Assembly (NCBI GenBank): GCA_028820845.1
Contig: JAPPII010000040.1
Coordinates: 7,647-50,088, forward strand
From: Candidatus Poribacteria bacterium
GTDB lineage: Bacteria; Poribacteria; WGA-4E; WGA-3G
DNA: 42,442 bases
Reading direction: 5' to 3'
The notes beneath the pieces were generated by a model. That model saw only the letters and a program-made list of their open reading frames with translations, searched no databases and was not told the DNA's origin. The translations under genes and the position numbers were made by a program. Positions 32,890 through 40,670 of the stretch are shown here, in pieces (within the stretch, counting starts at the first letter, position 1; each line of letters opens with the position of its first letter).

Positions 32890-34155
32890 TTAATCTTCAG
32901 TTCGGAGTGCGTCAGTAGGTGAAAACCGTGCCGCACGCATTGCAGGATAGACCCCAAAACCTACACCCATGACGATTGAGAAGATAACAGAGGTGAGTAT
33001 CCACGGTAAGGATAACACGACGGGCCACGCATCCACAACTGGCACGATCCGCACCGCGAGCCGTGCCATCCCATGCGCCGCCACCCAACCACCTGCGATG
33101 CCCAGCACCCCGCCGCAGAGACAGAGACAAATGGATTCTGTCAAGAACTGATAGAAGATATCTACCCGTTTCGCACCGACCGATTTCCGCAAACCTATCT
33201 CCCGTGTCTTTTCGCCGACAGAAACGAGGCAGATATTCATGATGCCGACACCGCTGACGAACAGCGAGAAACCTGCAAGGCTCCCTAACGTGATTTTCAT
33301 CACTTTTTGAATGTGGAAAAGTCGTCGAGCCGTCAGTTTCGCTATCCAAACCCCGATAAACTCATCTTTCCCTCGGTGTCTTTTACGCAGCGTGTTTTTA
33401 ACCGAATCAATAATACTATCAATTTCTGCACCTTTTCTAAAAAAGACGAGCAGATAGTCAACATAACGAAAGCCTTTTACCCGTTGTTGATAGGTTGTCA
33501 ACGGCACAGAAATCGCATCATCTAAAGAATACGCGTCGCTGAGGCTCATGCCTTTTGTTGCCATCACTCCGATAACCCGTAACCTGATCTGCGATTGCCG
33601 CCAATGATACCGAAGTTTCACCTCTTGTCCGATGGGCGATGCCTCACCAAAAAGCTCTCTGGCAGTGTTAGCGCCGAGGACACAGACCTGCTTTGCGTTT
33701 TCGATATCGCTGTCGGAGAGGAATCTACCGGCGTGAACTTCCCAACCCATGCCGGGAGCGTAGTCTGCTGTAATACCTTCTAAACGTGCTTTCGCCTGAT
33801 ACCCGTTTCGGTTGCTAACAAAGGTGTTGAAGTCTTCTACTTTAGGCAAGACGTACAGTACATCGGGGCATTCTGCCTCAACTGCAGAGGCATCCTCAAG
33901 GGTATATCGTTCTGTAGTGCGCCGGACGAGCCGCGGTCCCTTCCAAATAGAAGTCCGTGTCCAAAATGCAATCTGATTGGCACCGCCCATCATTTCAAGG
34001 TTTTGAGCGATGATAAGTTTCCCGCCATCGCCGATAGCGATCATGCACAGTACACCTGCAATCCCGATGAAGATGCCGAGAATGGACAATCCTGCCCGGA
34101 GTCTATTTTGCACCAGGGGCTTTACACCCACCGTGATAGCATCACGAAAGTTCAT
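32890..34155 (-). CDS. MacB-like ABC transporter permease (FtsX domain)
   Basis: 421 residues from the ATG at 34155; a GTG at 34164 is less likely. N-terminal helix (LSILGIFIGIAGVLCMIAIG), a large periplasmic MacB-PCD domain (about 50-270), and three C-terminal helices with the FtsX-type EIGLRKSVGAKRVDIFYQFLTESI motif, ending PTDALRTE. It is the permease half only; no ATPase gene is visible in the window. It starts 25 bp after the sigma factor at 34181 on the same strand, so they are probably cotranscribed. Such permeases export or drive lipoproteins and signals across the envelope. Confidence 0.88.
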   Translation of the reverse strand: MNFRDAITVGVKPLVQNRLRAGLSILGIFIGIAGVLCMIAIGDGGKLIIAQNLEMMGGANQIAFWTRTSIWKGPRLVRRTTERYTLEDASAVEAECPDVLYVLPKVEDFNTFVSNRNGYQAKARLEGITADYAPGMGWEVHAGRFLSDSDIENAKQVCVLGANTARELFGEASPIGQEVKLRYHWRQSQIRLRVIGVMATKGMSLSDAYSLDDAISVPLTTYQQRVKGFRYVDYLLVFFRKGAEIDSIIDSVKNTLRKRHRGKDEFIGVWIAKLTARRLFHIQKVMKITLGSLAGFSLFVSGVGIMNICLVSVGEKTREIGLRKSVGAKRVDIFYQFLTESICLCLCGGVLGIAGGWVAAHGMARLAVRIVPVVDAWPVVLSLPWILTSVIFSIVMGVGFGVYPAMRAARFSPTDALRTED

Positions 34156-34180
34156 AAGGATCACCCGAATTAGTGTTGCC

Positions 34181-35878
34181 TTATTTCTGTCCCAGAGCCT
34201 TCAGAAACGCTTCATCATCCTTTACATCTGAAAATTCAGGGGTCTCAAGGAAAGTCGGATAGTATGTATCCCGATTATAGGGAGTTACCACATAATAGTC
34301 CTGAGCGATTTTTAAATGATGTAAAGTCTTCTCTCGATCCTTCTCAGAAGCCCAGGTACTCACAGCAAGTTGGAAGTGCCCGTAATGGTTGCTATCTTCC
34401 AAATCAATGGCGATCTGTAGGAACCGTTTCGCCTCGTCATACTTCTTCAACCACAACAGACAACAACCGACATCGTGAGCAAACCACCAAAGATGGTCAA
34501 GATTTACAGGTTGACCTGCATCCCGTTTCTTCAACTCTCCTTCCAGATACGCATTCACTTCCGTAAAGACTTGATCGAAACGATCCCAATCTTCCTGTCT
34601 ACCGTAGACGAGGAGTCGATTTTCTTTTGCGATCAACCAGAATTGAAAATAGTGCTCCGAACTGAGATCGTTGTTAGCACGTTCTAACTTTTCTATTTCA
34701 AGGAGTGCTTCATCAAACCGGTTGTTGCCCCGTAAGACATCTGCTCCGACTTGCAGGAACTCGCCACGACTGTAGTAACTCACTTCAGGGCTTTCCAAAC
34801 GTTCAGAGGCTTCATTATAAAGTTGAATCCAGTCATCAATACGACCTTCCGCCGTCCAACAATTATGCACACTCAGCTTAACAGCCTCCAACACATATTT
34901 ATCTGACAAGTGCCGGCACGTCCAACGGTAAAGCAGAGAGTGTTCTTCAGCGGTTTCTCGATTTCTCCCAAGAAAAGCGAGACTATCGATTAACTCATTA
35001 TGTGCCCAGAAACGCTCGGTATTATCCAGCGTATCATTCATATACCTACGGAGTAGAGATAGCCGTTTTTCCATGCCAAGTTTGCCCATATACGGGTATA
35101 TCTCATCGACGGCAAGATGCACCAATTCGGGCGTAATTTCACCCTTAAGCGCAGCTTCAATCTCGTTGCAGGCTTCTGTAAGAATGGCCGCTCTTGATGC
35201 AGGATCAGATTTCACATTTTCCATGAATGCATTGAACCTGCTGCGAATTTCTTCTAATTGACTCATGATGTTCTCCTTGATATTATCTGATAGTTCTAAA
35301 TGGCCAAAGAATTCTTGATTCAAGAATTCTGGATCTGTTTGCAGACGCTTTCGCGCTCGCTGGAGTCGACTCGTAATTGTGTTCACCGACACGCCCATGA
35401 ATCTGCCGATCTCCTTCGTTGACATTTCGTCAAGATAGAAGAGTGTTACAACGGCGCGTTCATTCTCAGGCAGTTTTTCCAAAAGTCTTTTCACAAGTTC
35501 ATGGTAACGCTCGGTTCTCTCTGTCATCCGCTGTTCCGATATGTGATGGGTGTAGGAGGATTTCTCGATTTCTTCAATAGGTGTGTCCTCCAGGGACTGC
35601 ATTCCAGACTTTTGGGTTCGCATCCAATCAATGCAAAGCCGATTTGCGATGACATGGAGCCATCCCGCAAATTGAGTGGGATTCTTGAGGGTCGAAAGTT
35701 TGTTATATGCCCTCAGGAAGGTATCTTGCATAATATCTTCCGCATAGTGAAAATCTTGGGTCTTCCGCCATGCCAGGGCATGCACACTCTTTTGGTACTT
35801 TTCGACCAAGATACCAAACGCAGTGTCATCGCCTGATAGGATTTTATGGATCAGCTGAACATCGTCTTCTCTTTCCAC
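34181..35878 (-). CDS. ECF sigma factor with a large helical C-terminal domain
   Basis: 565 residues, GTG start with AGGAGGAAG ahead. Region 2 (FGILVEKYQKSVHALAWRKTQDFHYAEDIMQDTFLRAY, about 21-58) and region 4 (LPENERAVVTLFYLDEMSTKEIGRFMGVSVNTITSRLQRARKRL, about 136-179) are complete. The remaining 360 residues are helical, with a few TPR-like pairs (YDEAKRFLQIAIDLED, DEALLEIEKLE), and contain no DNA-binding motif. Internal ATG at 35266 (Met205) has AAGGAG exactly 6 nt upstream, so a separate C-terminal protein could also be made. ECF factors of this type act on envelope or surface regulons. It lies between the STAS gene and a MacB-like permease. Confidence 0.88.
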   Translation of the reverse strand: MEREDDVQLIHKILSGDDTAFGILVEKYQKSVHALAWRKTQDFHYAEDIMQDTFLRAYNKLSTLKNPTQFAGWLHVIANRLCIDWMRTQKSGMQSLEDTPIEEIEKSSYTHHISEQRMTERTERYHELVKRLLEKLPENERAVVTLFYLDEMSTKEIGRFMGVSVNTITSRLQRARKRLQTDPEFLNQEFFGHLELSDNIKENIMSQLEEIRSRFNAFMENVKSDPASRAAILTEACNEIEAALKGEITPELVHLAVDEIYPYMGKLGMEKRLSLLRRYMNDTLDNTERFWAHNELIDSLAFLGRNRETAEEHSLLYRWTCRHLSDKYVLEAVKLSVHNCWTAEGRIDDWIQLYNEASERLESPEVSYYSRGEFLQVGADVLRGNNRFDEALLEIEKLERANNDLSSEHYFQFWLIAKENRLLVYGRQEDWDRFDQVFTEVNAYLEGELKKRDAGQPVNLDHLWWFAHDVGCCLLWLKKYDEAKRFLQIAIDLEDSNHYGHFQLAVSTWASEKDREKTLHHLKIAQDYYVVTPYNRDTYYPTFLETPEFSDVKDDEAFLKALGQK

Positions 35879-39381: not shown

Positions 39382-40593
39382 TTAATGCCGCGCCGTGCTG
39401 GCATAAAATTCCGAGATGCTTTCAACGCCGCGAAGAAGTGCTTCATCACTCAAGCGAAACGCCTCGCGTATTTTCAGTTTTTGCTTGTTTTCTATCGAAT
39501 CAAGCAATCGTTGATTTAGTACGACATGGACGGTGTCCGCATTTTCTCGAAATTCCTGCAGTCCCTGTTCTGCTTTTTCGGCGCGACGTTCACCTTCAAA
39601 ATTGAAGGGACACGTCACAACGCCTACTGCTAAAGCCCCTTGGTTTCGAGCGAGCGAGGCAATCAGCGGCGCAGCCCCTGCACCCGTTCCCCCGCCCATA
39701 CCCGCTATAATAAAAACGAGGTCGGCATCTGCAACGATGGAATGAAGTTTCTCGCGATCCTCCTCAGCAGCCTTTTTACCCATCTCTGGATCCGCTCCGC
39801 AATATCCTGGCGTGCTGTTCATACCGATCCGCACAGGTGTTGCGTCATTGTGTTTGTCAAGTGCTTCCTTGACTACGTCCACAGCGTAAAAGTCAACATC
39901 TGTCAAACCTGCTTCAATCATCCATTTGACAGCGTTTCCGCCTGCACCGCCAACACCCACAACCTTGATTTTGTGTCGGAGACGCTTGGATTCTTCACGT
40001 CTATATGACATAGTTCTCCCTCTTTCAGATTCGACACCGAACTCCTTGCGCAGGAGTTCACGGGTCTGTCTTAATTTGGTCTTGATTGTCCCTATCGCCA
40101 ATCCAAGTTCAGCGTGGATCTCTTTGATATTCCACGATTCCAGATAGTATAGCACAGCAACACTGCGTACTTTATCTGGTAGGTGATGCACGACTTCTCT
40201 AACATCTTCGAGAAGTTCTGTTTCTCGGAAACGTGCAACCGCATTCTGATCAATATAATTAGTTAAGTCAGGGTGCGGAATTTCACTTCTCGAATGATGC
40301 CCGGAAGTGTAGTATCTCTTACAAGCGTTGTAAGCGATACGCTGCAACCAGCCACCAAAACTTTCGGTGCGCCGCAGTCCGCCGATATTTTCCCAGACGG
40401 CTCTCCAGATGTCCATGAGGATTTCTTCAGCGTCCCGGCGTTGTCTCGAATTCGCGATAATAACTTTCTCTATGCGCGGACTATAACGCGACATCAGTTC
40501 TGTAAACGCCAACTCATCACCGGCTTGTGTAAGCCGAATGAGGTCTTCATCTGTCAGATTGATGTATGTTAATAGATCGTATCGCATAGGCAT
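39382..40593 (-). CDS. ECF sigma factor fused to an FtsZ GTP-binding domain
   Basis: 403 residues in one open frame. Residues 15-185 are an ECF sigma factor: region 2 (ELMSRYSPRIEKVIIANSRQRRDAEEILMDIWRAVW) and region 4 (LPDKVRSVAVLYYLESWNIKEIHAELGLAIGTIKTKLRQTRELL). From about 208 the chain is FtsZ: T1 loop VVGVGGAGGNAVKWMIEAGL, T3-like YCGADPEMG, tubulin signature GMGGGTGAGAAP (GGGTGAG at 300-306), the PFNFEGERR block, and FRLSDEALLRGVESISEF with the T6-region Asp383. It stops before the T7 loop and lacks the whole FtsZ C-terminal domain. Internal ATG at 40011 (Met195) has GAGGGAG upstream. I know of no described sigma-FtsZ fusion. The start has only a weak GGGA. Confidence 0.85.
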   Translation of the reverse strand: MPMRYDLLTYINLTDEDLIRLTQAGDELAFTELMSRYSPRIEKVIIANSRQRRDAEEILMDIWRAVWENIGGLRRTESFGGWLQRIAYNACKRYYTSGHHSRSEIPHPDLTNYIDQNAVARFRETELLEDVREVVHHLPDKVRSVAVLYYLESWNIKEIHAELGLAIGTIKTKLRQTRELLRKEFGVESERGRTMSYRREESKRLRHKIKVVGVGGAGGNAVKWMIEAGLTDVDFYAVDVVKEALDKHNDATPVRIGMNSTPGYCGADPEMGKKAAEEDREKLHSIVADADLVFIIAGMGGGTGAGAAPLIASLARNQGALAVGVVTCPFNFEGERRAEKAEQGLQEFRENADTVHVVLNQRLLDSIENKQKLKIREAFRLSDEALLRGVESISEFYASTARH

Positions 40594-40595
40594 TT

Positions 40596-40605
40596 CCCAA
40601 TTGGG
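40596..40605. promoter_or_regulatory. 10-bp palindrome just upstream of the sigma-FtsZ start
   Basis: CCCAATTGGG, a perfect palindrome 2-3 nt before the start codon on the minus strand. It could be an operator or could sequester the weak ribosome site. Confidence 0.3.
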
Positions 40606-40670
40606 TTTTGAATTAAAGAGGGAGATTTTTCGGTAAGTGGTTTAAAAAAAGCAAGAAATTGCATTTTGAG

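Follow-up and report, generated by a model that had tools for sequence, protein, structure and literature searches.

A sigma factor is usually controlled by an anti-sigma factor or by a small sensor domain, and the locus described here raises the question of why, in a member of the Poribacteria, one is joined in a single reading frame to part of the cell division protein FtsZ, whether the joined protein is real, and what each half could do for the other. The window (the whole stretch of DNA analyzed, 42,442 nucleotides of a Candidatus Poribacteria genome) contains this frame at positions 39382 to 40593 on the minus strand, as are all features of the gene given below, with 403 codons and a stop. 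Read in order, it encodes sigma regions 2 and 4, a short linker, and an FtsZ GTPase domain, with the junction peptide FGVESERGRTMSYR. The initial annotation had proposed an ECF sigma factor fused in frame to FtsZ, and Pfam profiles agree, with matches to Sigma70_r2 at residues 33 to 97 (1.6e-6; 40303 to 40497, helical in the AF2 model), Sigma70_r4_2 at residues 129 to 180 (9.8e-7; 40054 to 40209, also present in the AF2 model), and the Tubulin/FtsZ GTPase domain at residues 208 to 367 (1.9e-38). The sigma half exceeds the cutoff of TIGR02937 (sigma70-ECF) and contains regions 2 and 4 only, with a short linker, as in ECF (group IV) sigma factors; the folded domain in frame behind region 4 places it among ECFs with C-terminal extensions. 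Orthologues begin at Met3 (40585 to 40587, by ortholog comparison), and the native product is thus probably 401 aa.

The FtsZ module, defined by profiles, AF2, and alignment, spans residues 208 to 401 (39391 to 39972) and ends with helix H7. It contains the nucleotide-binding loops T1 to T6 of FtsZ, including the T1 loop GVGGAGGNAV (39928 to 39957) and the T4 signature GMGGGTGAG (39676 to 39702), both located by translation and alignment, as well as T3 GADPEMG, FEG..R, the T6 NQ, and the H7 Asp, and most of these residues are invariant in 40/40 T7-less homologues. In these homologues, termed type A, the equivalents of T4 GGTG, E139, N166, and D187 are retained in all 40, and that of R143 in all 31 from the genus; the equivalent of the contact residue D46 is replaced in some of these 31 members (V in four, E in one, and N in one), and is V in the window's genome. 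The stop codon comes after H7 and, as first noted from the sequence, ahead of T7, and the T7 residues D210 and D213 are missing in 40/40 aligned T7-less homologues, such that the protein has neither the catalytic loop NxDxxD nor the FtsZ C-terminal domain. The TIGR00065 ftsZ model is matched at positions 10 to 206 of 353 with 215.6 bits, below the equivalog cutoff of 295.2. That the rest of FtsZ lies in another downstream frame was considered and rejected, a search downstream of the gene finding no C-terminal FtsZ remnant. Because type A keeps the GTP-side residues without T7, it would be expected to make one contact only and not to hydrolyze GTP; a GTP-binding, non-hydrolyzing module, which the initial annotation anticipated, is the right expectation from the conserved pocket.

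Comparison with solved structures gives the same boundaries, with residues 12 to 185 matching ECF sigma factors such as SigW and SigE, and residues 209 to 397 matching FtsZ up to position 198 of the Mycobacterium tuberculosis chain, shortly ahead of the start of T7. The AF2 model of the full chain, a prediction that had been suggested at the outset, was built from 92 aligned sequences, replacing an earlier one from a shallow alignment (20 sequences, pLDDT of 56). It has a mean pLDDT of 86.7 and consists of two helical sigma domains (sigma2 and sigma4), a poorly ordered linker at about residues 186 to 205, and the FtsZ N-terminal domain, which is ended by helix H7 at residues 375 to 401. The best Foldseek match of the module is M. 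tuberculosis FtsZ-GTPgammaS (rmsd 1.2 over 188 columns). With a pTM of 0.54, the relative placement of the sigma and FtsZ halves is not fixed by the model; there is no confident sigma-FtsZ contact, and autoinhibition is therefore not visible in it.

A search of related genomes for sigma and FtsZ domains in one protein finds the T7-less fusion in 36 of the 38 genomes of the genus, with full-length homologues 72 to 83% identical, and in 8 of the 18 genomes of the sister genus g20, these counts resting on frame lengths and homology where loci were not read base by base. Most of the genomes compared are metagenome-assembled; four that carry the fusion are single contigs (G005, G010, G022, and G029), and G003 has two copies in tandem. 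Within a phylum sample of 85 Poribacteria genomes the fusions are confined to one family, occurring in the window's genus, g20, and the single-genome genus g19, and were not found in two genus g18 genomes or in any other family; among the matches listed, full-length fusion relatives in named genomes come only from Candidatus Poribacteria. The T7-less end is identical in all aligned copies, and pairwise dN/dS (simple count method) values of 0.14 (sigma half) and 0.18 (FtsZ half) show that purifying selection acts on both. The fusion is thus conserved across genera, and the concern raised in the initial annotation, that relatives would encode the parts as separate genes or that the frame would exist only here or through an assembly error, is not borne out. 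Sigma-FtsZ is almost certainly a real functional fusion. A phage-borne origin was rejected, as a search of viral contigs in IMG/VR with find_related_loci returned no relative, and a known anti-phage defense protein was rejected, as PADLOC models do not match the fusions (P0001, sigma-DnaN, and sigma-FtsZ-DnaE). In the open-access library searched, no published description was found of an ECF fused to an FtsZ domain, or of an ECF in Poribacteria.

The sigma/FtsZ junction contains an internal ATG (M195; 40009 to 40011) that is invariant in 31/31 genus orthologues. It has a purine-rich stretch before it (AAAGAGGGAGAACT-ATG), with a Shine-Dalgarno-like AGAGGGAG at 40016 to 40023 recognized by its sequence, conservation, and strength. 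Third-position conservation around this ATG is 0.94, among the highest in the gene, versus a gene mean of 0.75. The predicted pairing with the 16S tail has a median of -7.8 in type A and -8.1 in the full-length paralogue type B described below, compared to -2.2 for other internal ATGs (p = 2e-21) and -4.2 for the sigma start; the controls here are other starts, as canonical ftsZ starts, taken from mechanical ORF calls that may be misplaced, were of no use for this purpose. The ribosome-binding pattern is kept where the junction protein sequence has changed, and also in g20 and before WD40 partners. The strength and conservation of this Shine-Dalgarno/ATG make a second, sigma-free FtsZ product likely, and the module is probably also translated alone from M195.

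Upstream of the gene, a pattern search identifies an ECF-type promoter, TTTTTAAACC-N18-CTCTTTA, with zero mismatches (40614 to 40648), and the sequence between it and the start codon contains a palindrome, CCCAATTGGG (40596 to 40605), that is recognizable in many A, B, and DnaN members. The promoter is defined as a conserved sequence pattern and its census is by pattern searches; TTTTTTTAAACC-N18-CTCTTTA, with fixed spacing, is present upstream of clade sigma genes of every partner type, with few exceptions. There are 87 sites with the exact form TTTAAACC-N18-CTCTTTA among the 38 genomes, present in 37 of them, versus none for a reversed-pattern control in the same genomes. Of the 87, 63 lie ahead of a clade sigma gene at a distance of 260 bp or less, and inspection adds two more; counted by gene, an exact site is present at 62 of the 88 clade sigma genes. 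The remaining sites checked are mostly before MacB/FtsX-type permeases, an ABC-2 permease, and exported WD40 proteins, with one before an IS-like transposase and one before an unclassified gene; the simplest reading is that ABC exporters are further predicted targets in some species. In the window's genome, sites within two mismatches are present only ahead of sigma-FtsZ and sigma-DnaN, and the other ECF genes checked lack the promoter (at least four mismatches). A bipartite promoter upstream of its own gene is the sequence pattern of ECF autoregulation, and sigma-FtsZ is very likely autoregulated through it. A second promoter copy is located 164 to 530 bp upstream of the sigma gene at L368 (G022, near 1501) and L429 (G008, near 275); behind that of G022 lies what appears to be a decayed sigma start, which may mark where an earlier sigma gene was lost.

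In a tree of GTPase domains, the fused FtsZs form two sister clades, the T7-less type A and a full-length type B (support 98/87), which together are sister to the genus's own canonical FtsZ. This fits a single ftsZ duplication with fusion to the sigma gene before the A/B split, the depth of this event being provisional in a tree built without g20 sequences. The canonical ftsZ is still intact and, in many genomes, lies 37 to 65 kb away from the T7-less fusion. Type B is organized as sigma-full FtsZ-DnaE in most genomes, with the PHP, polymerase, and finger domains of DnaE and its C terminus cut off, and as sigma-FtsZ where DnaE was lost; the G066 frame stops within the first DnaE residues. The DnaE C-terminal end is variable, and the frame is broken in some genomes (G015 and G031). 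The type B locus is flanked by two conserved genes, coding for a 371-aa permease and a 445-aa protein, and a type B member of another Poribacterial genome shares 58% identity across 1341 residues. Single sigma-FtsZ-DnaE frames of about 1340 to 1745 aa (L045 3020 to 7072, L046 2967 to 7067, L049 3011 to 7282, and L246 5001 to 9026, all plus strand) are kept at one locus across genera, and the canonical DnaE (∼1180 aa) is a separate gene. The type B FtsZ module (for example L047 5214 to 6875, minus strand, from the alignment) retains T7 in most members and has Asp at the second T1 glycine in 25/28 and at the T3 glycine in 24/28. Types A and B are thus partial mirror images, with B keeping T7 and A keeping the pocket without T7. 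Because B keeps a full FtsZ together with DnaE, T7 loss is not general. The A and B modules might pair with each other, but genomes that have A and not B (e.g., G000, G012, and G022) indicate that such pairing is not a general rule.

FtsZ is one of several C-terminal partners. The type B position is occupied by sigma-DnaN in three genomes (G022, G025, and G035), and G023 has sigma-PurC there, ahead of sigma-FtsZ. In the sigma tree, the DnaN and PurC bearers nest within the B clade and the WD40 bearers group with A, indicating that C-terminal partners have been swapped within a single sigma lineage; as the same lineage carries DnaN, PurC, or WD40, the biology is not FtsZ specific. Same-lineage sigma-DnaN genes include L050 235 to 1965 (minus), L051 2004 to 3746 (plus), L054 1985 to 3736 (plus), L106, L107, and L125, some of which are at the sigma-FtsZ-DnaE locus of relatives; two further DnaN genes of the genus stand alone. 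Independently, another ECF lineage, unrelated to this one, has been fused to DnaN (L176 14096 to 15811, minus, in G010; also in G005 and G018), about 3 to 9 kb from the sigma-FtsZ gene. The G023 genome, which is 84% complete, yielded no PurC other than its sigma-PurC (L048 5356 to 6846, minus), whose identity to the stand-alone PurC in the window's genome is 94%. At L360 (6114 to 7040, plus), the same sigma has a second short domain with a weak HTH_16 match and lies downstream of a sigma-WD40 gene. Many other ECFs in G000 (loci L144 to L164) run in frame into an apparent transmembrane segment and a large domain, totaling 440 to 1000 aa. The window contains a further ECF whose long C-terminal half is unannotated (34181 to 35878, minus), with a MacB/FtsX-type permease gene (32890 to 34164, minus) 16 bp behind it; ECF and MacB genes recur together in the genus, and MacB genes adjoin sigma-DnaN.

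We tentatively favor a one-component, autoregulated, self-amplifying ECF switch in which sigma activity is set by the FtsZ-derived module, itself a binder of GTP and of native FtsZ. In FtsZ filaments, GTP of the lower subunit is hydrolyzed in an active site that the upper subunit completes with its T7 loop (PMC8936486). The module would bind GTP and could meet the T7 of native FtsZ only as the bottom subunit, the one that presents the nucleotide, and docking on native FtsZ or on filament ends would restrain the sigma half or keep it from RNA polymerase. A change in FtsZ assembly or in GTP would free the sigma half, which would bind RNA polymerase and read its own promoter, and ABC-exporter promoters in some species, in a positive feedback loop, and the separately translated module could buffer the switch or itself block FtsZ growth. 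That the module is the input domain is a plausible though far from secure assignment, and is preferred because of the analogy to ECFs with fused C-terminal regulatory domains, for which there is precedent (PMC8103513). The D46 equivalent is lost in several members, including that of the window's genome, which weakens the docking model there; the strong separate FtsZ start suggests that the module acts alone too, which a pure sensor would not need; and a PurC partner is at odds with a sensor of division or replication. It is conceivable, with similar reserve, that the sensory halves of this sigma family are interchangeable copies of core machines (FtsZ, FtsZ plus Pol III alpha, beta clamp, or PurC) and gate transcription. 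The gate could then perhaps be the state of, or an attack on, the copied machine, acting through a private self-amplifying promoter.

The module could instead be cargo, with the sigma half mainly driving its own gene, and T7-less FtsZ capping or poisoning native FtsZ and slowing division like SulA or MciZ; the DnaN, the DnaE fragment, and PurC would be other cargoes of the same self-amplifying driver. We consider a cargo role for the FtsZ module somewhat unlikely, but it accounts for the locus nearly as well as an input domain does, because the promoter seems to serve little else in the window's genome than sigma-FtsZ and sigma-DnaN and a free module is probable; the junction Shine-Dalgarno outdoes those of the sigma start and of other internal ATGs, so large amounts of free module are probably produced, and T7 loss leaves it one assembly face (PMC8936486). 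However, there are predicted ABC-exporter and WD40 targets too in other species, paralogue B keeps a full-length FtsZ with T7, and covalent fusion is not required of an effector, yet the junction frame stays open in the members read. A different role for the C-terminal halves is as integrated decoys that copy the targets of phage inhibitors or antibiotics (FtsZ, Pol III alpha, and beta clamp), such that binding by the attacker would free the sigma factor to turn on its own gene and efflux pumps. The immune protein CapRel, which is triggered by FtsZ bound to the phage inhibitor Gp0.4 (PMC13423816), is a precedent for such sensing, the partners do copy core machinery and are exchanged at one locus, and some promoters precede MacB/ABC-2 exporters, with MacB genes next to sigma-DnaN. 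Nonetheless, PurC and WD40 are not known attack targets, and the lack of PADLOC family matches and of relatives among the IMG/VR viral contigs also makes decoys improbable.

Two further explanations dispute the fusion itself. The sigma factor and the FtsZ-like protein could be separate products, with the fused chain arising incidentally by read-through once the sigma gene had lost its stop codon, and the junction Shine-Dalgarno and ATG are indeed kept despite differing residues (ERGRTM, LIREGIM, NIERGTTM, and EGVRTM) and also before other partners, and in one clade sigma that stands alone, the stop falls at this very position (GVEPE-stop). But the FtsZ-bearing members read, from at least two genera, have no stop at the junction, and a stop would be easily regained if separate products were preferred, so we regard this as slightly more improbable still than decoys. 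An assembly artifact or a decaying pseudogene has nothing in its favor for the sigma-FtsZ class, as only paralogue B has a variable DnaE end and broken frames, and it is extremely improbable given dozens of independent genomes, four of them single contigs, dN/dS values of 0.14 to 0.18, and a nearly fixed fusion length; conservation across genomes led us to reject an assembly or single-genome artifact for sigma-FtsZ.

In one lineage of the sponge-associated Poribacteria, sigma factors are welded to paralogues of division and replication proteins, with partners repeatedly swapped and one promoter kept, an arrangement that may couple transcription directly to the machinery of the cell cycle. If the module gates the sigma factor, it would provide a direct one-protein link from FtsZ state (or GTP) to transcription, and cell-cycle reading without a kinase becomes testable; if the module is the output, the protein would be a self-driving division regulator. 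Either reading provides a ready chassis for FtsZ- or clamp-responsive gene switches and a new use of a T7-less FtsZ.

The sigma-FtsZ module shares with canonical FtsZ the GTPase fold and the nucleotide residues of T1, T4, T5, T6, and H7, and appears derived from the lineage's own ftsZ by duplication, but it lacks T7, the C-terminal domain, and the C-terminal tail, and has gained an N-terminal sigma factor. MciZ is a short peptide that caps and inhibits FtsZ, and the Foldseek matches include 4u39, the FtsZ:MciZ structure. As with MciZ, one FtsZ assembly face is predicted to be occupied by the sigma-FtsZ module, although MciZ is an unrelated peptide and here a GTPase domain is tied to a sigma factor. 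In T4 late transcription, the sigma-type gp55 is coupled to the sliding clamp gp45 (PMC2988020, PMC7892883), a pairing of a promoter-specificity factor with a replication protein of which the sister sigma-DnaN is, in outline, a covalent version; the proteins are different, the T4 coupling is non-covalent, and the likeness concerns the DnaN siblings, not sigma-FtsZ. The closest parallel in organization is with ECFs with C-terminal extensions (ECF41, ECF42, ECF56 with SnoaL_2, and CorE; PMC8103513), in which, as in sigma-FtsZ, sigma2 and sigma4 are followed by a folded domain, no neighboring anti-sigma gene is recognized, and the promoter pattern is one of autoregulation. Sigma-FtsZ differs from these in that its extension is a paralogue of a core division protein, with DnaE, DnaN, and PurC in sister genes, in that the Poribacterial sigma lineage swaps its partners, and in the strong internal start ahead of the extension.
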